From Candidatus Hydrogenedentota bacterium (GTDB taxonomy: Bacteria > Hydrogenedentota > Hydrogenedentia > Hydrogenedentales > JAEUWI01): a stretch of 64,000 nucleotides of DNA. A program made the translations under genes and the position numbers. The number at the start of each line of letters is the position of its first letter. Within the stretch, counting starts at the first letter, position 1. The DNA lies in NCBI GenBank assembly GCA_019637335.1, contig JAHBVV010000001.1:441440-505439 (forward strand), in the 5' to 3' direction. Below, one piece after another: positions 5,056-58,614 of this stretch. The notes beneath the pieces were generated by a model, which saw nothing but the letters and a program-made list of their open reading frames with translations, did not search any database and was not told where the DNA came from.

Positions 5056-5157
5056 GGGACGTACCCCCGCGTTGGGGCGTTTGTGGGTTGGGGGCGGTGT
5101 GTCGGAATACGTTGGGTGTGTGCTTCGGGGTTGGGGGGGTGTGCGGCGGTACGTCCC
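5056..5157 (+). repeat. 102-bp terminal-inverted-repeat element, copy 2
   Basis: Same length and same terminal GGGACGTACC/GGTACGTCCC pair as copy 1, with a few internal substitutions. It has the same left flank ending CCCGGGCC. Confidence 0.85.
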
Positions 5158-5200
5158 TTTTCTGGGCTGGGGATTGGTGGTGGTCGCGTACGTTGTAGTG

Positions 5201-5356
5201 GCGGATGTGGTTGGTCGGAAGGTTCTATGTCGCCCCGCTGGGGCTTTATCGTTTGGGGGCGGGTAACCGAGGGCTGGCTCGTTCGCGCTGTCGCGCGATC
5301 TCGCTTCGCCCTGGGCTACGGTATGCCGCCGCTACGCGGCTATGCAATTGGGCGCT
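5201..5356 (+). repeat. multi-hairpin repeat R2, copy 2
   Basis: Near-identical to 4387-4546, but the segment between the CCGAGGG and CCCTGGG arms differs. The GCCGCTACGCGGC palindrome is perfect here where copy 1 has two changes, consistent with selection or gene conversion keeping a stem. Confidence 0.7.
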
Positions 5357-5496
5357 ATCCGGTGCTCACGTCTTTTCGGTTTGGAATTCGGGCTTCCTGT
5401 AGCGGGGCGAGTAAGGTTTGCGCCTTGCGGCGCGGTGGACGGGCGGGGTAGCAGGCTGGATTTGGTGGCGCGGCGTGGTTTGGCTCGACCCGGGCC

Positions 5497-5598
5497 GGGA
5501 CGTACCCCCGCGTTGGGGCGTTTGTGGGTTGGGGGCGGTGTGTTGGAATACGTTGGGTGTGTGCTTCGGGATCGGGCGTATGCGCGGCGGTACGTCCC
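5497..5598 (+). repeat. 102-bp terminal-inverted-repeat element, copy 3
   Basis: Same 102-bp length and perfect terminal inverted repeats as copies 1 and 2. The interior differs mainly in the last 30 bp. It ends 139 bp before the metal ATPase start. Confidence 0.85.
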
Positions 5599-5737
5599 TT
5601 GGTTGTGCTGGCGGTATGTCCCCTGGTTGGGCGTTTTTTATTGCGTGGTGGAAGCGGGGGCTGGGGAAGGCGTACGCTTGGGGTGCGGGGAGGGGGCTCG
5701 CACGCGGACGGTTTTCCATGGAAGGACGCTCACTGTA

Positions 5738-7618
5738 ATGGCCGATGAAGCTTCGCGGGGCCTTGTGGCCTTGCTCCGACGTTATCAGATTGCCGGCATC
5801 ACGGCGCTGGCGCTTTCGATGATTGCGGCGTATCTGACGCTGCGTTTCGGGTTCGGGCTGGCGGGGTGGCGGGCGGATGCGCCGTTGTGGATCTGCCTGG
5901 CGCTGGGCGGGACGCCGCTGGTGTTCGAACTGGGGGCGAAGGCCCTGCGGCGCGAGTTTGGATCGGACCTGCTTGGCGGCATTTCGATCGTGACGTCGGT
6001 CGTGCTGGGGGAGTATCTGGCGGGCGCGATTATCGTGTTGATGCTTTCGGGGGGCGAGGCGCTGGAGGCATACGCGCTGCGCAGCGCGTCTTCCGTGCTG
6101 GCGGCGCTGGCGCGGCGGATGCCGTCGGTGGCGCATCGAAAGGGTGAGAACGGGACGCTGGAGGATGTGGCGCTGGACCGGGTGGCGGTGGGCGACACGC
6201 TGGTGGTTTATCCGCACGAGATCTGTCCGGTGGATGGCGAGGTGCTTGCGGGGCACAGCGTGATGGATGAGTCGTACCTAACGGGCGAGCCGTTTCAGAT
6301 CACGAAGACGCTGGGGTCGAGCGTGATATCGGGCTCGATCAATGGGGAGTCCGCGCTGACCATTCAGGCGACGCGGCGGGCGGCGGATTCGCGGTACGCG
6401 CGGATTATGGCGGTGATGCGGGAGTCGGAAGCGACGCGCCCGCAGATGCGCCGTCTGGGGGATCAGCTGGGGGCGGCGTATACGCCGCTGGCGGTGGTTA
6501 TTGCGGTGGGGGCGTGGCTGGTCAGCGGCGATCCGTTGCGCTTTCTGGCGGTGCTGGTGATCGCGACGCCGTGCCCGCTGCTGATCGGGATTCCGGTGGC
6601 GATTATCGGTTCGATTTCGCTTTGCGCGCGGCGTGCGATTGTGGTGAAGAGCCCGATCGCGCTGGAGCAGATGACCCGGTGCCGTACGGCGATATTCGAC
6701 AAGACGGGGACGCTGACCTATGGGGAGCCGGCCCTGACGGAGCTTGCGCCGGGCCCGGGTTTCGAGCGTCGGGAGGTGTTGCGCCTGGCGGCGGCGGTGG
6801 AGCGCTATTCCAAGCACCCGCTCGCGGAGGCGATCGTGGCGGCGGCGGAGGGGGAGGGGTTGGTCATTCCGGATCCGGAGTCCGTTCGGGAACGTCCGGG
6901 CGAGGGGCTGCGGGGCATGGTCGAGGGGCGCGCAATTCGTATAACCAGCCGCAAGAAGATCGATGGGGAGCCGGTGGCGGGGCTGGAGCACCTGCCCGAG
7001 TTTGCGGGGGGGCTCGAGTGTGTGGTGATTGTTGACGGGACGCTCGCCGCGACATGCCGTTTCCGGGATTCGCCGCGCGCGGAGAGCCATTCCTTCATGC
7101 GGCACCTGGGGCCGCGGCACCAGTTCAAGCGTTTGATGATCGTTTCCGGCGACCGCGAGTCGGAAGTGCGTTACCTGGCGGAGGAAGTGGGGGTGACGGA
7201 GATCCACGCGCAGAAGAGTCCGGAGGAGAAGCTGGCGATTGTTCGGGAGGAAACCGCGCGGGCGCGCACGCTCTATGTCGGGGACGGCATCAACGATGCG
7301 CCGGCGATGATGGCGGCGACGGTGGGTATGGCGATCGGGCAGGGGAGCGATGTCACGGCGGAGGCGGCGGGGGTGGTGATCATGGACAATACGCTGCAAA
7401 AGGTGGACGAGTTTCTGCATATCAGCCGGCGGATGCGCGCGATTGTGCTGCAGAGCGTGCTGGGCGGCATGGCGCTGAGCCTTATCGGGATGGGGCTGGC
7501 GGCTGCGGGGCATTTGAGCCCGGTGCAGGGCGCGGTTTGCCAGGAGATCATCGACGTGCTGGCGGTGTTGAACGCGTTGCGGGCGGCGTGGCCCCCGCGG
7601 ACGCTTTCGGACATGTAG
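5738..7618 (+). CDS. P1B-type heavy-metal-transporting ATPase
   Basis: This 626-aa protein is a heavy-metal efflux P-type ATPase. It shows the phosphorylation motif DKTGT (D321), the actuator loop SYLTGEP, an HP dipeptide (KHPLAEA) and the hinge GDGINDAP. The membrane metal site in TM6 is TPC (277-279) rather than CPC, and TM7 carries QEIID followed by NALR, a combination described for the P1B-5 subgroup (cobalt/nickel/iron-like substrates are suspected). There is no N-terminal heavy-metal-binding domain. Long upstream extension of the frame is repeat DNA, so I chose the ATG after GGAAGGACGC. The substrate is inferred from the motif class only. Confidence 0.85.
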
Positions 7619-8165: not shown

Positions 8166-8265
8166 AAGGGATCCAATAATCGATAAGGGCTGAAGGCCCG
8201 CTTCATAGCGCTTGTAATTCATCGGTAATGTCAGAGCTGCACCCCTTACTTTGTTGACCCCGGCC

Positions 8266-8367
8266 GGGACGTACCCCCGCGTTGGGGCGTTTGTGGTTTG
8301 TAGGCGGTGTAACGGAATACGTTGGGTGTGTGCTTCGGGATTGGGGGTATGTGCGGCGGTACGTCCC
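8266..8367 (+). repeat. 102-bp terminal-inverted-repeat element, copy 4
   Basis: Perfect 10-bp terminal pair GGGACGTACC/GGTACGTCCC. First of three copies spaced exactly 128 bp apart. Confidence 0.85.
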
Positions 8368-8393
8368 TTGTTTGGGGTGGATCGAACCGGGCC

Positions 8394-8495
8394 GGGACAT
8401 ACCCCCGCGTTGGGGCGTTTGTGGCTTGTAGGCGGTGTAACCCAATACGTTGGGTGTGTGCTTCGGGGTTGGGCGTGTTTGCGGCGGTACGTCCC
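8394..8495 (+). repeat. 102-bp terminal-inverted-repeat element, copy 5
   Basis: The left end is GGGACATACC, one change from the consensus; the right end is intact. A 26-bp spacer separates it from copy 4. Confidence 0.83.
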
Positions 8496-8521
8496 TTGTT
8501 TGGGGTGGATCGAACCGGGCC

Positions 8522-8623
8522 GGGACGTACCCCCGCGTTGGGGCGTTTGTGGTTTGTAGGCGGTGTAACGGAATACGTTGGGTGTGTGCTTTGGGGTTGG
8601 GCGTATTTGCGGCGGTACGTCCC
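8522..8623 (+). repeat. 102-bp terminal-inverted-repeat element, copy 6
   Basis: Both ends are intact, with the same 26-bp spacer (containing TTTGGGGTGGATCGAACC) as between copies 4 and 5. This shows that the 128-bp unit was duplicated in tandem. Confidence 0.85.
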
Positions 8624-8750
8624 TTGTGTGGGGTGGGTTATTGTGGACGGGAATGTCTGCGTCCCGGTGGGGGGACGTGTTAAGCTATGCGGGAACGCGG
8701 AGGTGTTCGGGCGTGGCGCCTGAACGGTCCGGGTCCCGGGAGAGCTTTCG

Positions 8751-27048: not shown

Positions 27049-27093
27049 GGGGGAGCGGTATAGGGGGCCGCTCGCGGGGGGGAGGTTTCTTGC

Positions 27094-27480
27094 GGGTACA
27101 GCCTCGGGCGGTTTTTGGGGTGGTCTTTTCGGGGCGGTGGGTGGTATATCCGCCCGATGCAGTCCCCCTTTTTTCGGGTACAGCCTCGGGCGGTTGTTGG
27201 GGTGGTCTTTTTGGGGCGGTGGGTGGTGTTTCCGCCCGATGCAGTCCCCTTGGTGTGGTATTTCCGCCCGATGCAGTCCCCCTTTTTTCGGGTACAGCCT
27301 CGGGCGGTTGTTTGGGGTGGTCTTTTTGGGGCGGTGGGTGGTATATCCGCCCGATGCAGTCCCCCTTTTTTCGGGTACAGCCTCGGGCGGTTGTTTGGGG
27401 TGGTCTTTTTGGGACGGTGGGTGGTATTTCCGCCCGATGCAGTCCCCTTGGCCCCTTCTTCCGCCCGATTCAGTTCCCTT
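27094..27480 (+). repeat. 82-bp tandem repeat block
   Basis: Four units begin with GGGTACAGCCTCGGGCGG at 27094, 27176, 27290 and 27373, and end in CCGCCCGATGCAGTCCCC. CGGGCGG and CCGCCCG within each unit can pair across a G/T-rich middle. The second unit has an extra 32-bp duplicated end. It fills the whole topA-smg gap, where no gene is seen. Confidence 0.85.
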
Positions 27481-29382: not shown

Positions 29383-29770
29383 CGTGCCGTGGCGGGTACA
29401 GGCACCCGCGATTCTCGGGTGGTTGGGACGCCTTCGCGGCTGGGGTGGTAATTGTCGCGGTTGAGAGTCCCCCTGGGGCGGCGGAGCCGCGGAGCTTGAA
29501 CGTGGAGCCCGTGCCGTGGCGGGTACAGGCACCCGCGATTCTCGGGTGGTTGGGGCGCTTTCGCGGCTGGGGTGGTTGTTGTCGCGGTTGCCAGTCCCCC
29601 TGGGGCGGCGGAGCCGCAGCGCTTGAGGGTGGCGCCCGTGCCGTGGCGGGTACAGGCACCCGCGATTTTTGGGTGGTTGGGGCGCTTTCGCGGCTGGGGT
29701 GGTTGTTGTCGCGGTTGCCAGTCCCCCTGGGGCGGCGGAGCCGCGGAGCTTGAACGTGGCGCCCGTGGCT
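29383..29770 (+). repeat. 127-bp tandem repeat, three copies
   Basis: Units begin CGTGCCGTGGCGGGTACAGG at 29383, 29510 and 29637. Each holds a short stem (CGGGT-ACAGGC-ACCCG), a G/T-rich middle and CCAGTCCCCCTGGGGCGG near its end. No gene is seen between the SCP2 gene start and the groL terminator. Confidence 0.85.
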
Positions 29771-50619: not shown

Positions 50620-51082
50620 CCCTCTGGGCCGGAACGCCGCCGCCGCGGACAGGGCGCGGCCACCAAGTATGCCCGAGAGACTCACCTTTTGGGCGAGACG
50701 GGTATGTCCACCTTGATCCCGGCGACCATGAGGAACCGTACGGCGGCCAGGTTGGCGACGGCGTTTGACCCTTCGGCGGGGAAGAGGTATTCGCGGGCGG
50801 TGTGAATTCTGCGAGCGCCTGGGGGTTTGGTGGTTTCCGAGTTTCTAACCTGTTTTGCGGTAATTGCTTGCGCGGTGTCCCGGCGGCTGGCGGCTGCGGC
50901 GCCAGACTTGTTGCAGCGGGCGTGGATGTCTGCTATGCTGGAGGTGGCAGTGATGTCGTTTGTCCCAGGTGACATTGTGATTCAATTGTCGTGAATAGAC
51001 CTTACGCAGTACTGTGCTGCGGCCAATTGCTCGGGTACAGTGAGTCGGGTTGCATCAACCAAACATTCAGGAGTGCACTGGT
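50620..51082. other. region between the P2 ATPase and the Cys-rich repeat protein
   Basis: About 460 bp. It holds a probable gene fragment on the minus strand (50682-50820). The rest should contain the promoter of the Cys-rich gene, but I see no convincing -35/-10 pair; TTGTCG-N18-TACTGT starting near 50987 is the best guess. Confidence 0.45.
50682..50820 (-). pseudogene. C-terminal fragment resembling an M20-type peptidase
   Basis: On the minus strand GARRIHTAREYLF and then ANLAAVRFLMVAGIKV precede a stop at 50682. The R-x-IHT-x-x-EYL layout is typical of the last helix region of M20/ArgE/DapE-like hydrolases. Upstream the frame has no family features, so it seems to be a remnant left by rearrangement. 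Weak call. Confidence 0.3.
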
Positions 51083-51799
51083 ATGATCGAAGAACGCGAA
51101 CAGAACGTTGTAGAAGAAACCGCTGCTCGCGGTGGCAGTCTGAAGAAATGGGCGGTGTTTACGGCGGCGATGGTGGCGCTGTCCGGCGTGGCGACCGCGA
51201 CGGCGCTTGCCGGCGCTGGCGAGGGCACGTGCCCGCTTTCGGCCGCGAAGGCGCTTGCGGCGTCCTCCGAGGGTGAAGCCAAGACGTGCGACAAGGCGAC
51301 GGCGGCTTCCTCCGAAGGCGAGAAGGCGTGCGACAAGGCGAAGACGTGCGACAAGGCGACGGCGGCTTCTTCCGAGGGCGAGAAGGCGTGCGACAAGGCC
51401 AAGACGTGCGACAAGGCGACGGCGGCTTCCTCCGAGGGCGAGAAGGCTTGCGACAAGGCCAAGACCTGCGACAAGGCGACGGCGGCTTCCTCCGAGGGCG
51501 AGAAGGCGTGCGACAAGGCGAAGGCCGCCTCTTCCGAAGGTGAGAAGAAGGACGGCTGCTGCCCGTCGAAGGTAGCGAAGGCTGCCTCCTCCGAGGGCGA
51601 GGCGAAGACCTGTGACAAGGCCAAGGCGGCTTCCTCCGAAGGCGAAGCCAAGACTTGCGACAAGGCCAAGGCCGCTTCTTCCGAGGGCGAGAAGTCTTGC
51701 GACAAGGCGAAGACCTGCGACAAGGCGACGGCGGCTTCCTCCGAAGGCGAGGCGAAGACCTGCCCGCTTTCCGCCAAGAAGGCCGCTGAAGCGGTCTGA
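51083..51799 (+). CDS. exported Cys-rich AASSEGE repeat protein
   Basis: A 238-aa protein of unknown family. Residues about 20-45 form a signal or anchor segment (KKWAVFTAAMVALSGVATATALA). The rest consists of ten repeats that begin AASSEGE, each followed by one or two CDKA cysteines (KACDKAKTCDKAT in full form). One repeat has GCCPSK instead. TCPLSA occurs once before the first repeat and TCPLSAKK once after the last. There are 16 cysteines outside the signal and almost no hydrophobic residues, so it is unlikely to fold as a globular domain; metal binding or cross-linking are possible. CAGGAG precedes the ATG and a strong terminator follows. Confidence 0.8.
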   Translation: MIEEREQNVVEETAARGGSLKKWAVFTAAMVALSGVATATALAGAGEGTCPLSAAKALAASSEGEAKTCDKATAASSEGEKACDKAKTCDKATAASSEGEKACDKAKTCDKATAASSEGEKACDKAKTCDKATAASSEGEKACDKAKAASSEGEKKDGCCPSKVAKAASSEGEAKTCDKAKAASSEGEAKTCDKAKAASSEGEKSCDKAKTCDKATAASSEGEAKTCPLSAKKAAEAV

Positions 51800-51861: not shown

Positions 51862-51880
51862 GTGCACCCGGGCCGGGGAT

Positions 51881-52215
51881 TGAATCGCTCGCCCGGGCAT
51901 CCTTTGTGTCGCTGGCGTTCGTGAACACGGGCACACGAACGGGCGTTGCCCGATCGCGTGGCACGGTGTGGTTCTGGTGCTGGTTGGATGTGGGGCTTGA
52001 ATCGCTCGCCCGGGCTTTCTATGTATCGCTGGCGTCCGTGAACACGGGCACACGAACGGGCGTTGCCCGATCGCGTGGCACGGTGTGGTTCTGGTGCTGG
52101 TTGGATGTGGGGCTTGAATCGCTCGCCCGGGCTTTCTTTGTGTCGCTGGCGTTTGTGACTACGGGCACACGAACGGGCGTTGCCCGATCGCGTGGCACGG
52201 TCGGCGGCCTGGGTT
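51881..52215 (+). repeat. 117-bp tandem repeat, about 2.9 copies
   Basis: Units start TGAATCGCTCGCCCGGGC at 51881, 51998 and 52115. Each has the hairpin CGGGC-GTT-GCCCG followed by GATCGCGTGGCACGGT and a G/T-rich stretch. The period is 39 codons, so the minus strand stays open through all copies (GNARSCARVHERQRHKE and similar). No gene is supported between the terminator and the GatB/YqeY gene. Confidence 0.88.
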
Positions 52216-53564: not shown

Positions 53565-54482
53565 TCAGGGGGCGATCAGGACGCCGGTGTAATCCTCCGT
53601 GGCGTCCACAATGGTCCCGGGCAGCACGACACAGCGTTCGAGGCGGATGGGGTGCAGGACCCGCACCCCGTCCCCCAGCACGCTCCCATTGATGGCGCAG
53701 CCCGGGGCCAGGCGGCAATCGTGGCCCAGCAGGTGGGGCAGCCCGCGCCGGGCGAGTTCGCGGACGGAGCAGGTGACGAGGTCGTTTGGCTCGGTGATGT
53801 TCATATCCCACGCGACCATCGGAACCGCGTGCACGGGGGCGCCGTGCTCGACGAGGCGCTGGATGGCGTCGGTGAGTTCGTATTCGTTGCGCAGGGCGGA
53901 GCGCGGGGTTTCCCGGATGGCGTCGAAAAGGCGGCGGTCGGCGAGGTAGAGCCCGCAGCCCTTGCAGCGGGTCGGCGGGTGGGCCGGCTTTTCTATCAGC
54001 CGGCTTACGCGCCCGGCGGCATCGGTCTCGACGCTGAAATTGCGGCGGACGGCGTCGAGGTCCTCGTCTTCCCGCACAGCCAGGGCCACGGCGGCGCGGT
54101 GTGTTTCGAAGGCCGCGCGGAGGGCGTCCAGGTGGTCGAATTCGAAGTAGATATCGCCGAGAAGGAGGTAGAAGGGGCGATCCAGGTACGCTTCGAGCTG
54201 GCCGACGGCGTGGGCGAGCCCCTGGCGATCGGTTTGCTCGGCGTAGGTGATGGAGAGCCTCCACGCTTCGCCGTTGCCGAGGGCCTGGCGGATCTGGTCG
54301 CCGAGGTGGCCGACTACGATGATGACATCGCGCACGCCGAGCCGGCGCAGGGTGTCGAGGTGGCGGTGGATGAGGGGGATGTTGCAGACCGGGAGGAGCG
54401 CCTTGGGGTAGCGGTCCGCGATGGCGCCCATCCGGGCGCCGTGGCCGGCGGCCAGAATGACGCCCTGGCAGGGGCTGGACAT
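53565..54482 (-). CDS. sugar-phosphate nucleotidyltransferase (RmlA/GlmU-like)
   Basis: A 305-aa NTP transferase with the pyrophosphorylase signature GVILAAGHGARMG (7-19) and YPKALLPVCNIPLIHRHLD. LLLGDIYFEFD is the metal-binding Asp strand. The C-terminal part (AINGSVLGDGVRVLHPIRLERCVVLPGTIVDA) is a short left-handed beta-helix tail. It should activate a sugar-1-phosphate with UTP, dTTP or GTP. A substrate cannot be named. AAGGAG lies before the ATG. It converges on the sigma-like gene, with 6 bp between the stops. Confidence 0.88.
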   Translation of the reverse strand: MSSPCQGVILAAGHGARMGAIADRYPKALLPVCNIPLIHRHLDTLRRLGVRDVIIVVGHLGDQIRQALGNGEAWRLSITYAEQTDRQGLAHAVGQLEAYLDRPFYLLLGDIYFEFDHLDALRAAFETHRAAVALAVREDEDLDAVRRNFSVETDAAGRVSRLIEKPAHPPTRCKGCGLYLADRRLFDAIRETPRSALRNEYELTDAIQRLVEHGAPVHAVPMVAWDMNITEPNDLVTCSVRELARRGLPHLLGHDCRLAPGCAINGSVLGDGVRVLHPIRLERCVVLPGTIVDATEDYTGVLIAP

Positions 54483-54719
54483 GGCTTTGGGCTCCTTTTC
54501 CCGGTAGGGCTTCGGGTCAGGGGCGCATTGTGGCGCAGCCCGCAGGGTGGTGGCAAGTTTATTGGGGGGCGCGTGGAGAATCGTTTGGGAACGGGGCGGC
54601 AATGCGTTGAAAATTCTTGTCGGGCTATCTCTTTCGGGGGTAGTTTGTAAGTTGTTCTATATCATTTATTTATGGGCATGGCTTTCCAAGAAATGTTCCA
54701 AAATGGAAATATAACCTTT

Positions 54720-54965
54720 CAATTGGCCGATATATAACCTTGCAATCAGCCGAAGTTTTGGATTGCAATTGGCCGACTTTCGGAGCAATGAGGTGTGCGG
54801 TGGGGGCGCTGTATTTCAATTGGCCGGGATATAAGGTTTCAATTGGCCGAAGCAAAAACTTTCAATCAGCCGAAGTTTTTGCTTGCTATTGTCGCCCGAA
54901 AAGGTTACAATCAGCCGAAATAAAACCTTTCAATCAGCCGCAGTATAACCTTGCGATCAGACGCC
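54720..54965 (+). repeat. 23-bp phased repeat array upstream of the DUF4143 ATPase
   Basis: The core CAATTGGCCGA or CAATCAGCCGA starts at 54720, 54743, 54766, 54817, 54840, 54863, 54908 and 54931. Degenerate copies lie at 54886 and 54954. Nearly all steps are 23 bp; one 51-bp gap breaks the phase. Between cores lie AT-rich 12-mers such as AATAAAACCTTT and TATATAACCTTG, giving a loose 23-bp consensus (AACCTTKCAATYRGCCGA). The array ends at the base before the start codon at 54966. It could be an iteron-like operator array or a leader for slippage. No cas genes lie near. Confidence 0.9.
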
Positions 54966-56210
54966 ATGAGCAGCCCCGATACCTATACCCGATTCGTCAT
55001 GCCACGCCTCGACGAGGCGCTGGACGATTCGCCCGTGGTGCTCATCGACGGCCCCCGCCAGTGCGGTAAAACGACGCTGGCGCAGCAGGCCGGGGCGGCG
55101 CGCGGATACGCCTATTTCAGTTTCGACGACGACGTGGTGCTGGCGGGCGCCACCGCCGATCCGGCGGGCTTCATCGACGATCTTCCGCCGTACAGCATCC
55201 TGGACGAGATCCAGCGGGCGCCGGATCTGTTTCGCGCGATCAAGGCGAGCGTGGATCGGAAGCGGACGCCGGGGCGCTTCATGCTGACGGGGTCGGCGAA
55301 CGTGCTGCTGGTTCCGCGGCTTTCGGATTCGCTGGCGGGCCGGATGGAAATCCTCCGGCTGCACCCGCTGTCGCAATGCGAGCTGGCGGGGGTGGCTCCG
55401 GACTTTCTGGACGCGGTGTTTGGAGACGGTTTTCCGATGGCGAAGGTCCCGCGCCTGCAGCGGACGCTGGCGGACCGGATCGCGGCGGGCGGCTACCCCG
55501 CGGCGCTGGCGCGGGCGTCATACCGGCGCCGGTCGCGCTGGTACAGCGACTACCTGACGACGCTGGCGCAGCGGGACGTGCGGGATCTGGCGCGGATCGC
55601 GTCGCTGGACGCGCTGCCCCGGCTGCTGTCCCTGACGGCAAGCCAGACGGCGCGTCTGTTGAACGTATCGGACCTGGCGTCGCCGTTCCAGTTGAGCCGC
55701 CCGACGATCCGCGACTACATGACGCTGCTTGCGAGCGTGTTTCTGGTTGACGAGCTGCCGCCTTGGCACACGAACCGGCTGAGCCGCCTGATCAAGACGC
55801 CGAAGCTGCACATCGGCGATACGGGGCTGGCGTGCGCGCTGCTCGGGGTCGACGCGGCGGGGCTCTGGGCGGACCGGGAGCTGCTCGGGCAGTTGCTGGA
55901 GACCTTTGTCTACCAGGAACTGCGGCGGCAGGCGAGCTGGCGGGAGGATCCCATCAGCTTCAACCACTTTCGCGACAAGGATGGCGCGGAGGTGGACGTG
56001 GTGCTGACGTGCGGGCAGCGGGTGGCGGGGGTGGAGGTGAAGGCGTCGGCCACGGTGAAAAAGCATGATTTCCGCGGGTTGCGCAAGTTGCAGGCGGCCA
56101 GCGGGAAGCGATTCCAGTGCGGGGTCGTGCTGTACGACGGCGAGACGGCCGCGCCGTTTGGCGACGGGATGTACGCTGTGCCGATCCGGCGTCTGTGGGA
56201 GCCCGGGTGA
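54966..56210 (+). CDS. AAA ATPase with C-terminal DUF4143 nuclease-like domain
   Basis: A 414-aa protein. N-terminal ATPase: Walker A GPRQCGKTT (29-37, K35), Walker B ILDEIQRAPDLF, sensor LTGSANVLLVPRLSDSLAGR. The middle has YRRRSRWYSDYLTTLAQRDVRDLARI and TASQTARLLNVSDLASPFQLSRPTIRDYM, a winged-helix-like part. The C-terminus FNHFRDKDGAEVDVVL and GVEVKASATVKKHDF is the DUF4143 PD-(D/E)xK-like fold. Families of this type are common as solitary, often multi-copy genes of unknown role. There is no visible ribosome binding site beyond the repeat array. The start could be ATG 54966 or an in-frame codon at 54951. Confidence 0.85.
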   Translation: MSSPDTYTRFVMPRLDEALDDSPVVLIDGPRQCGKTTLAQQAGAARGYAYFSFDDDVVLAGATADPAGFIDDLPPYSILDEIQRAPDLFRAIKASVDRKRTPGRFMLTGSANVLLVPRLSDSLAGRMEILRLHPLSQCELAGVAPDFLDAVFGDGFPMAKVPRLQRTLADRIAAGGYPAALARASYRRRSRWYSDYLTTLAQRDVRDLARIASLDALPRLLSLTASQTARLLNVSDLASPFQLSRPTIRDYMTLLASVFLVDELPPWHTNRLSRLIKTPKLHIGDTGLACALLGVDAAGLWADRELLGQLLETFVYQELRRQASWREDPISFNHFRDKDGAEVDVVLTCGQRVAGVEVKASATVKKHDFRGLRKLQAASGKRFQCGVVLYDGETAAPFGDGMYAVPIRRLWEPG

Positions 56211-56218
56211 AACGCCGG

Positions 56219-56288
56219 GACGGCAGGGACTTCAGCGACAGCGTGGATTTCGATTCCTGCTGACGCTGCTGGCCCTGCCGTCGCTGAA
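56219..56288. repeat. nested inverted repeats after the DUF4143 gene
   Basis: GACGGCAGGG (56219-56228) pairs with CCCTGCCGTC (56273-56282). An alternative pairing, TTCAGCGA (56231-56238) with TCGCTGAA (56281-56288), overlaps it. No T-run follows. It lies between the convergent DUF4143 and hydrolase genes. Confidence 0.5.
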
Positions 56289-56334
56289 AACCACCGCTTT
56301 TCCGTGCAAGGTGGAATTCGGGCCGCAATTACTG

Positions 56335-58614
56335 TCAGGGTGTTCGCGCGAAATTCAGCTTGTCGCGGAGAAACTGGAAGGTGCCGACGCCATTGATCTT
56401 GTGGGGCCCGTTGAACCACTCGATGGCGGTTTCGTCGGTGAGGCCGAGGAGATCGTAGCGGTTGCGGACGCGCGCGAACTCGTAGCCGACCCACTCGTCC
56501 GGCGCGACGCCGTCCCAGTGGCCGCGTTCGACCATGAAGGGGCGGGGGCAGATGAGCCAGGCCATTTCGGCGTAGTTGAAGGTCTCGCCGAGGTTCCACT
56601 CGAACATTTCGTATTCACCGTGAAACATGTAGCTGGTGATTCTCCGGCGGGTGACGTTTTTCCAGATCCATTCGTTGAAATCGCCGGAGCAGATGGAGAG
56701 GCAGTATTCCTCCAGCACGGCGGGCACGCGCATGGCGGTCTTTCCGCCGTAGCTGAGGCCGTAGAAGGCGATGCGATCGGGATCGACAAAGGGGAGGCCG
56801 CCGAGCCACTTCAGGGTTTGCCGGTGCTGCTCAATGATGTAGCTGAAGAGCGAGAGGCGCAGCGGGTTGGCTTTTCGCTGCACGGAACGGAAATGGTCGC
56901 CGCCGATGTAGGGGTTCTGGGGGGCATAGACGATGAAACCCTCCTCGGCCAGCTTGCAGCCGTATTGTACGTAGTAGTGGCTGTTGATCGCCGGGTCGGT
57001 TATCTCCTGGGGGCGGCCTTCGAGCCCGTGCTGGCAGACGACGACGGGGCGGCGCTCACCGGGCTTGATGCCCTTGGGGAGCAGGAGGATACCGTACGCG
57101 AAGACGTCCTCGTATACATCCAGCACGACCTCGTGGCCGGTGTAGTGATCGGTTTCATAGACCTGGCGCGTACGCGGGTTCAGCGGAATCGTGCTTTCCG
57201 GGAGGCTGCCGATGATTTCCTCGTGAAAGATGCGGCGATATTCGGCGGTGGAGGCGACCCATGTGGCTGCGCTGGCCGCGTCGGCGTTGCTCCAGAACGT
57301 CGCGCGGGTATGGGGCGCTTCCTCCAGGATCCGGTCGACCCAGTCCAGCATGCCCTCGACCTGGCGCTTCATGCGGACGCGCGCATCGGGCAGCTCCCGG
57401 AGCGGTTCCGGTGGGGCGGCGCTGGACGGCTGTGTCAGCTCCAGCGTTTTCGCGAACTGTTGGAGGGTTTCGTCCTGCCCGGCCTCCCGGCCTGCCTGGC
57501 CAGCGATCCGTATCCAGGGCGCGTCTGGCTTATTCGCGACGTAGGACTCGGCGCGGGCCACTTCGGCCTGGATGGCGTCGATGGGGGGGGCGGGCACGGC
57601 TCCGGGCGCGGCTCCGTGGGGGCGGCCTTCGGTCATGGGCGGCCCGGAGACGGCGGGCGGGGCCGCGGGCTCGATGATCAGCGCGCGGGGGGCGACGAGC
57701 GCCGCCAGCTCCGCATCGCCAAAGTCGGAAAGCAATCCCCAGACATTCCGGTAGATGGGCTCGGCCCATAGGCCCTCGCGCGGGCCGAAATAGCCGGAGA
57801 CCACTGCCGCGCCGATACGCGTGTCGAGCGCGGCGGCGTGCAGGGCCAGCAGGCCGCCCTCGCCGTAGCCCATCACGCCGAGGGGCAAGCCGGGGCCACG
57901 GCGCACGAGCCAGTCCGCGCCGGCGAGGGCCTTTTGCAGCTCGAAGCCGATGACGTGGCGGCCCATTTCGTAGGCGCCCCGGTAGATCCACTCGCGGTGC
58001 GGCTGGTTCGTCATGCGGACATCGGGATGGCCCGACCAGGTGTCCGTGCGATCGGCCAGCACGGGAATCAGGATGCGCGCGCCGGCGGCGGCGAGTCGCA
58101 GGGCGTATGGATTGCCCCCGCCCTCCAGGCCGAGCAGGGCCTCCGGGTTTTCGTCGGCGTCGGGCAGGAGGATGAGCGAAGCGCGCGCGGGTTCATCCGG
58201 CTCGACCAGCAGGCCTTCGCCCCAGGCATTGCCGAAGACGGGCCAGCGCACGGCGTAAATGTGGTAGCCCTCGCCGCGCGCCAGCGGACCTTCCTCGCCC
58301 GGTGCGGCGATGGTCTCGACGTCGCCCCGGACGCGGGCGTCGACGGCGCCGAGGATCGTGCGGAGATCGGCGCGATTTTCCGCCGCGAAGGCGCCCGTGA
58401 GGGGGGAAGCGCTCCAGCGGGCCGACCGATCTTCGCGTGCGGCGTCGATCCGCCGGTCCAGGTCGGCGTGCAGGCCATCCACCATGCGCGTGGCTAGATC
58501 GCCTTCCCAGTCGAGCGGCGCGACATCGGGCAGCAATTGCGCCGCCGCCGTGGTTGCCAGCAAGAGGGCGGACGCGAATAGGGCCAGAGATTGCTGAATC
58601 TGGTTGACGCGCAT
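56335..58614 (-). CDS. tandem alpha/beta-hydrolase protein (acetyl-xylan esterase-like)
   Basis: A 759-aa secreted protein (signal SLALFASALLLATTAAAQ). Two hydrolase folds follow. The first (about 100-330) has VMGYGEGGLLALHAA, where GxSxG becomes GYGEG (Gly at 251), so the nucleophile serine is missing. The second (about 470-755) has RIAFYGLSYGGKTAMR with an intact serine (S621), VVVCQHGLEGRPQEI as oxyanion region and a late His candidate in VERGHWDG. Such proteins deacylate plant polysaccharide in related organisms, which is inference here. CGGGAG precedes the start. It converges on the DUF4143 gene. Confidence 0.78.
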   Translation of the reverse strand: MRVNQIQQSLALFASALLLATTAAAQLLPDVAPLDWEGDLATRMVDGLHADLDRRIDAAREDRSARWSASPLTGAFAAENRADLRTILGAVDARVRGDVETIAAPGEEGPLARGEGYHIYAVRWPVFGNAWGEGLLVEPDEPARASLILLPDADENPEALLGLEGGGNPYALRLAAAGARILIPVLADRTDTWSGHPDVRMTNQPHREWIYRGAYEMGRHVIGFELQKALAGADWLVRRGPGLPLGVMGYGEGGLLALHAAALDTRIGAAVVSGYFGPREGLWAEPIYRNVWGLLSDFGDAELAALVAPRALIIEPAAPPAVSGPPMTEGRPHGAAPGAVPAPPIDAIQAEVARAESYVANKPDAPWIRIAGQAGREAGQDETLQQFAKTLELTQPSSAAPPEPLRELPDARVRMKRQVEGMLDWVDRILEEAPHTRATFWSNADAASAATWVASTAEYRRIFHEEIIGSLPESTIPLNPRTRQVYETDHYTGHEVVLDVYEDVFAYGILLLPKGIKPGERRPVVVCQHGLEGRPQEITDPAINSHYYVQYGCKLAEEGFIVYAPQNPYIGGDHFRSVQRKANPLRLSLFSYIIEQHRQTLKWLGGLPFVDPDRIAFYGLSYGGKTAMRVPAVLEEYCLSICSGDFNEWIWKNVTRRRITSYMFHGEYEMFEWNLGETFNYAEMAWLICPRPFMVERGHWDGVAPDEWVGYEFARVRNRYDLLGLTDETAIEWFNGPHKINGVGTFQFLRDKLNFARTP

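Follow-up and report, generated by a model that had tools for sequence, protein, structure and literature searches.

What is the role of a phased repeat array that runs almost up to the start codon of a gene for a defence candidate? The question is raised by a window of 64,000 nucleotides (nt) from Candidatus Hydrogenedentota bacterium (assembly GCA_019637335.1, contig JAHBVV010000001.1, positions 441,440-505,439, forward strand), which is the whole stretch of DNA analysed and the frame for the coordinates given below. Copies of a CAAT(TG/CA)GCCG core occupy positions 54720..54963 on the + strand and are followed by P0001 (54966..56210, +), a PDC-S01 gene encoding a protein of 414 amino acids with AAA_14 and DUF4143 domains. 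The array proves to be real and its conservation runs deep, in front of a gene that is itself a common defence candidate. We consider it likely that this is the autoregulatory operator-promoter of the PDC-S01 gene, bound by the winged helix of the gene's own protein.

Cores were scored as matches out of 10 to CAAT[TC][GA]G[AC]CG. Three perfect cores (10/10 each) start at 54720, 54743 and 54766 (54720..54775), three more at 54817, 54840 and 54863 (54817..54872) and two at 54908 and 54931 (54908..54940). A degenerate core at 54886..54895 scores 6/10 and the last core, CGATCAGACG (54954..54963), 9/10; all lie on the + strand. The count of eight good and two degenerate copies given in an earlier note on this DNA was thus recovered (8 at 10/10, one at 9/10, one at 6/10). 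The exact 23-base-pair (bp) register that it described holds for most of the array, apart from one step of 22 and a stretch of 51 bp between 54766 and 54817 that bears no lattice copy: the 23-bp lattice position, 54789, scores 2/10, and only a poor CAATGAGGTG was seen by eye at 54786. The last copy, said to touch the start codon, is indeed adjacent to it, but 2 nt remain before the ATG. Core pairs at a 23-bp step with at most 3 mismatches were found 6 times in the window, always in the array (mean in dinucleotide shuffles, 0.06). In the complete genome (7.16 Mb), core pairs at the same tolerance were found at 5 places, all within the array. The G+C content is 46% in the array and 69% in the gene.

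The conservation of the array was assayed at 80 loci collected from public genomes by protein similarity and not chosen for cores. These were the 80 top-ranking of 526 confirmed candidates and share 43-73% identity; 78 could be scored, having a usable start and upstream DNA. When phased cores were counted at steps of 21-24 bp, at least two were present upstream in 73/78 loci and at least three in 61/78, four being the commonest count. The same scan returned 0/78 in gene bodies, 3/1560 in shuffles and 6/78 on the other strand. The copy number ranges from 2 to 9 among the scored relatives, and no evidence was obtained for the copy-number switch that had been suggested. Steps are of 22-23 bp in 182/183 cases, with conserved cores and variable spacers. 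Self-comparison of the 78 unselected upstream regions, performed without any motif, gave two peaks and no others, lag 23 (68%) and lag 22 (31%), whereas the remaining lags from 11 to 40 gave 1-5%; 68/78 loci showed lag 23 or 22. Lag and promoter tests on core-chosen upstream regions are partly circular, but the 78 unselected loci gave nearly the same figures. The same-genus genome G035 has six copies in front of an orthologue of 72% identity; G009 (64%) has three. The clade with the array bearers contains 81 rows, is supported by a value of 100 in the Shimodaira-Hasegawa-like approximate likelihood ratio test (SH-aLRT, quick method) and carries 23 phylum labels.

The reverse question, whether the array occurs away from the gene, was addressed with exact core pairs in 27 of the genomes of the 80 loci. 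Pairs were detected in 12/27 genomes, at 19 places, and a reversed control pattern gave 1 match. By tblastn, done for 14/19 loci, the gene adjoins 13, and the remaining 5 places sit in the same arrays. Of the 19 places, 17 thus precede the gene, one belongs to a second array that follows it, and the last (G091:C140) is elsewhere. A second set comprised 398 genomes from the phylum to which G069 belongs, the Thiohalobacter bin that contains locus L051. Seven of them held pairs, at 8 loci: five beside a full gene, one where the contig breaks off shortly after the gene begins, one preceding an apparent decayed gene (by eye) and one orphan array. Array pairs in the cellular genomes searched therefore adjoin almost only this gene. 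The earlier note had tied its proposal to the array accompanying other copies of the gene family and not appearing at random elsewhere. On this point the outcome is divided: no phased copies of the core accompany the genome's 4 further DUF4143 genes, whereas it is present in relatives of 43-73% identity and absent elsewhere in the own genome.

Ten viral contigs encode a P0001 relative; an array search covering 9 of these found a chain of four in one, L136. Phage decoy arrays were also considered, on the basis of pairs in 33 other viral contigs, but these pairs were not accepted as evidence, 14 of the 20 inspected falling within an open reading frame (ORF) of at least 100 codons. One viral contig, L134, displays four CAATCAGCCGA-type repeats, 21-24 bp apart at about 6155-6186, beside an ORF (5151-6074) that by eye resembles a RepA-type initiator; these repeats resemble plasmid iterons with the same core.

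In relatives, the last two copies of the array show a promoter-like specialisation. They were compared in 51 upstream regions where 0-2 nt separate the last core from the start codon. The base at core position -1, which played no part in core selection, is A in 46/51 last copies as against 12/46 third-last copies, and G in 30/49 penultimate copies as against 8/46 third-last ones (nominal Fisher p 7e-11 for A and 2e-5 for G, relatedness ignored). Last copies display TA at the front in 44/51 cases and a hexamer ending in T in 43/51, which is exactly TACAAT in 21. Penultimate copies display TTG at the front in 29/49 cases, with TTGCAA in 23. Steps of 22 or 23 leave 17 or 18 nt between these -35-like and -10-like hexamers, with the -10-like one ending 6-8 nt ahead of the ATG. 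The last two repeats of the relatives would thus form a sigma70-like promoter geometry suited to a leaderless mRNA. In a matrix scan, the best promoter-like site lay 5-10 nt before the start in 46/78 unselected loci, compared with 39/390 shuffles. The same scan gave 23/34 for upstream regions without the array (9% in shuffles). Shine-Dalgarno-like 4-mers were present in 7/77 array upstream regions and in 5/34 non-array ones. In the window, a promoter-like pair, TTGCTA-17-TACAAT, is located inside the array (54883..54911, +; consensus match only). The core at 54908 bears the TTACAAT that is typical of the last copy in many relatives, here placed two copies further upstream.

The protein itself was then characterised. 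Pfam detects AAA_14 (PF13173, 93.5 bits for a cut-off of 27) and DUF4143 (PF13635, 159.3 for 28.1), and P0001 matches a PADLOC model for the single-gene defence candidate PDC-S01 (PDLC04790, E 1.1e-165, residues 5-412). The AAA_14 ATPase domain covers residues 22-140 (55029..55385, +). It is followed by a presumed winged-helix region at about residues 210-285 (55593..55820, +), delimited from an AlphaFold2 model and the alignment, and by a PD-(D/E)XK-like nuclease region at about residues 305-410 (55878..56195, +) with E342, D344, E357 and K359. A sequence search for solved structures returned a best E of only 0.15. The AlphaFold2 model (mean predicted local distance difference test score 88) was compared with known folds over residues ~1-294. 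The best matches are the ATPases PABY2304 (2qen; Z 15.2, root-mean-square deviation (rmsd) 4.8, 254 aligned) and SSO1545 (2fna; Z 14.3, rmsd 4.1, 248 aligned), which we take to be of the STAND class. CED-4 and the plant nucleotide-binding leucine-rich repeat receptors come next (Z 12-13), then general AAA+ proteins such as dynein and p97 (11-12). In the model, P0001 would be a STAND-like ATPase with a winged helix, in the sense of fold likeness to 2qen and 2fna only. Walker A residues G34 and K35 are kept in 113 of 114 aligned rows, D80 in 114 and E81 in 113; in the nuclease region, E342 is found in 114 rows, D344 in 113, E357 in 112 and K359 in 114. Foldseek matched the nuclease region, taken within the whole model, to Can2 at E 2e-5, yet with a template-modelling score of just 0.23. 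Judging from these residues, the ATPase and nuclease activities are probably both intact.

The motif was next related to the presumed recognition helix (residues 245-258 in the alignment, inside the winged-helix region). Two motif classes were distinguished, an CAATTGGCCG class and a TTCACCA class. The helix reads [ST]-R-x-T-[IVM] in 67/77 array-class rows and [PS]-x-[ST]-T-[LM] in 10/10 TTCACCA-class rows. The motif class therefore goes with the helix type, as a clade-level association. Within the core, the variable dinucleotide was TG in 114 of 262 cores, CA in 72, TA in 43, CT in 16 and CG in 6; independent positions would lead to 46 CG. Such coupling would make sense if one or more thymine methyl groups were needed at this step. 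The earlier note took the TG and CA forms for an alternation of two related binding sites. Along the array of the window, however, the order is TG, CA, TG / TG, TG, CA / CA, CA, CA, and there is therefore no regular alternation. In the relatives, 81 adjacent TG/CA pairs are the same and 39 different; neighbouring copies tend to be alike, and alternation was thus abandoned as a feature.

Altogether, multi-operator control by the ATPase itself, one of the proposals of the earlier note, appears to be the best reading of the sequences, because the array is found with the gene under 23 phylum labels, overlaps the promoter-like signature and has a motif class that matches the presumed recognition helix. 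Several copies of P0001 would bind the phased cores through the winged helix and silence a sigma70-type promoter. With the -35 and -10 hexamers within two adjacent repeats, the 22-23 bp step would match the spacing of the promoter itself. Transcription in many relatives would begin at or beside the ATG and give a leaderless mRNA; the cassette would therefore supply promoter, operator and start, and the ribosome binding site of a new host would be unneeded. With additional copies upstream, an ATPase oligomer could load cooperatively, and the array may seed such an oligomer as well. The array-gene cassette would spread horizontally, and the protein would be released on infection.

Several observations weigh against this reading. 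First, protein binding and repression are inferred from sequence, and the promoter matrix was built from approximate frequencies. Second, the window fits imperfectly: its last core is CTTGCGAT, not TTACAAT, and with the promoter-like copy at 54908 the leader would be ~48 nt long, so that the window gene may not be leaderless. Third, no phased pair was found in 5/78 loci, of which L126 and L128 are outside the array clade, L104 and L124 inside it, and L098 has an apparently variant core (by eye). In 36/78 relatives, more than 2 nt separate the end of the scored chain from the assigned start, and start codons of relatives were assigned by rule, some possibly wrongly; a lax core (at least 6/10) ends 0-3 nt before the start in 57/81, compared with 230/780 random gene-body positions. 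Fourth, 15/27 genomes had no exact pair, the exact-pair pattern being therefore strict, and the 33 viral contigs (7 + 26) with a core pair include none encoding a P0001 relative in the DNA examined. Finally, 10/77 array-class rows have other helix types, and covariation inside the array class is uneven, with a suggestive signal at some motif positions and none at others. For CA/TG, 7 of the top 12 columns are in the winged helix (p 0.002), for two features 5/12 (p 0.05 each) and for two others 2/12, with no enrichment (relatedness ignored throughout).

A bolder form of the autoregulatory reading, which we regard as possible but doubtful, makes the array a DNA co-factor too. An ordered oligomer of a STAND-like ATPase-nuclease, assembled on 2 to 9 phased sites, would silence the leaderless promoter and be kept inactive; a phage signal would then switch the ATPase and empty the array, at one stroke freeing the nuclease and starting its own production. 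If this were true, a self-sufficient cassette for any phylum would help explain the commonness of PDC-S01.

The most serious competitor of autoregulation, improbable in our view, is a cis site of the ATPase-nuclease acting beyond transcription (loading, centromere-like, iteron or recombination), with promoter control secondary, on the pattern of ParR/parC and iteron plasmids. It would account for copies (2 to 9) in excess of what simple repression requires, and it agrees with the mixing of phylum labels across the tree, with homologues of any class on 390/72,556 plasmids, with the orphan array in L206 and with same-orientation arrays behind the gene in L083, L088 and L113. These second arrays lie just past the stop codon, and ~3 kb examined contained no further P0001 relative; they could be what is left of a tandem copy since lost, or could point to movement mediated by the array. 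However, the threshold for a downstream array was passed by only 5/73 loci, 3 of which look clear, and tandem duplication followed by loss would account for two-sided arrays, tandem PDC-S01 genes being present in L086 (where cores also precede the start of the upstream one, by eye). Moreover, promoter-like bases mark out the last two copies, and the Pfam search found no Rep or Par domain in P0001, which also disfavours the iteron-type origin put forward in the earlier note.

Since binding by P0001 itself is an inference, a different, host-encoded regulator could in principle occupy the array. We judge this very unlikely: the same cores go with the gene under 23 phylum labels, flanking DNA is common to few locus pairs, and the own genome has no second array. 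Slightly less probable again is that the repeats work as RNA, through leader hairpins or attenuation. A perfect 12-bp inverted repeat does flank core 54863 (by eye), and the predicted transcript of the window may hold two cores in its leader; but this inverted repeat was not seen in G035 (by eye), an Rfam scan of 54400-56400 gave one chance-level match only, and the predicted start of many relatives falls past the array. A functionless tandem repeat created by slippage is hardly credible: copy number is variable, and the nine copies chained in L106 are mostly near-identical, but cores are conserved despite variable spacers, 182/183 steps are of 22-23 bp and even distant relatives retain the array.

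The array class is one subfamily of PDC-S01, and other DUF4143 subfamilies carry different operator-like sequences at the same position. Several relatives at ~45-50% identity have TTGCAAATTCACCA...TGGTTAAAAT...ACCATG-type sequences with a 22-bp repeat spanning the ATG, and lag 22 is prominent in the 34 non-array upstream regions (21% vs 3%). Of the further four DUF4143 genes in the own genome, none of which has phased copies of the CAAT(TG/CA)GCCG core, three show operator-like sequences of other kinds ahead of the start (by eye): L004 belongs to this ACCATG-type class, L005 has a perfect inverted repeat, L007 has a leaderless-looking promoter and L008 none of these.

The phylogeny bears on the spread of the cassette. 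In the whole tree, 24 phylum labels need 43 changes, for a possible minimum of 23 and 50.8 in shuffles. This mixing suggests transfer but does not prove it, because bins may contain foreign contigs. Most of the 45 long DNA matches listed begin about -80 to +50 of the ATG and finish near the stop codon, and few locus pairs share DNA further into the flanks. The same-genus genome G036 has both flanking genes with a different gene in between and provided no clean empty site; it therefore documents presence/absence only, the insertion ends not being visible. Of a gene that lies intact beside the PDC-S01 gene in G035 (L047:9954-10655), G036 (L155:9500-9575) seems by eye to retain the two ends only. 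On the Marinobacter nauticus plasmid pMAQU02 (L217), typed conjugative, the gene is preceded by four array-like cores (by eye). In the accessible part of PMC4406477, TT_P0211 of Thermus thermophilus (AAA_14, DUF4143) is 6.6-fold up in plasmid-bearing compared with plasmid-free Ago-positive cells. This locus tag was not firmly matched to a gene; the likely candidate has an inverted repeat before its start, not the array (by eye). Elsewhere in the window, a repetitive ORF at 51050-51799 consists of many KTCDKA and AASSEGE units with a tandem-repeat DNA structure, and tandem repeats with units of ~82-128 bp are located at 8262-8636, 27093-27478, 29383-29767 and 51875-52201.

How does this array compare with known systems? 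The accessible part of PMC12988326 describes the PDC-S01 type as an ATPase fused to PD-(D/E)XK, the superfamily name adopted here for the nuclease region, and calls it a defence candidate. It ranks PDC-S01 as the fourth most common prokaryotic defence, with 29,494 bacterial and 9,986 archaeal instances, and gives no mechanism or regulation in that part. A conserved operator defined by its motif offers a direct way in: it points to the likely DNA ligand of a family whose function is unknown, allows a reporter of PDC-S01 activation to be predicted and suggests how one gene gets expressed after transfer between phyla. No description of the array was found in the literature searched, which covered few subscription journals and no preprints.

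The structural neighbours 2qen and 2fna differ from P0001: their chains have 350 and 352 residues and align to residues 1-294 only, with an identity of 15-17%. Iteron-controlled rep genes and ParR/parC centromeres have direct repeats with a promoter inside, bound by the product of the adjacent gene. P0001, in contrast, has no Rep or Par domain, and there is no evidence of replication or partition. The nearest precedent is RptR, a repressor of a defence island which, according to the accessible part of PMC12255303, binds direct repeats in a defence promoter cooperatively. Direct repeats overlap a defence promoter there, as they would in the array, and for RptR cooperative binding has been shown. 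Unlike the protein studied here, RptR is a small dedicated repressor, and its three repeats are 9 bp long and each contain a TAGCTA palindrome; for P0001 the cores are 22-23 bp apart and the presumed repressor is the ATPase-nuclease itself. With this precedent, the proposed model is ordinary in its logic, and what is new is that the presumed repressor would be the effector itself.
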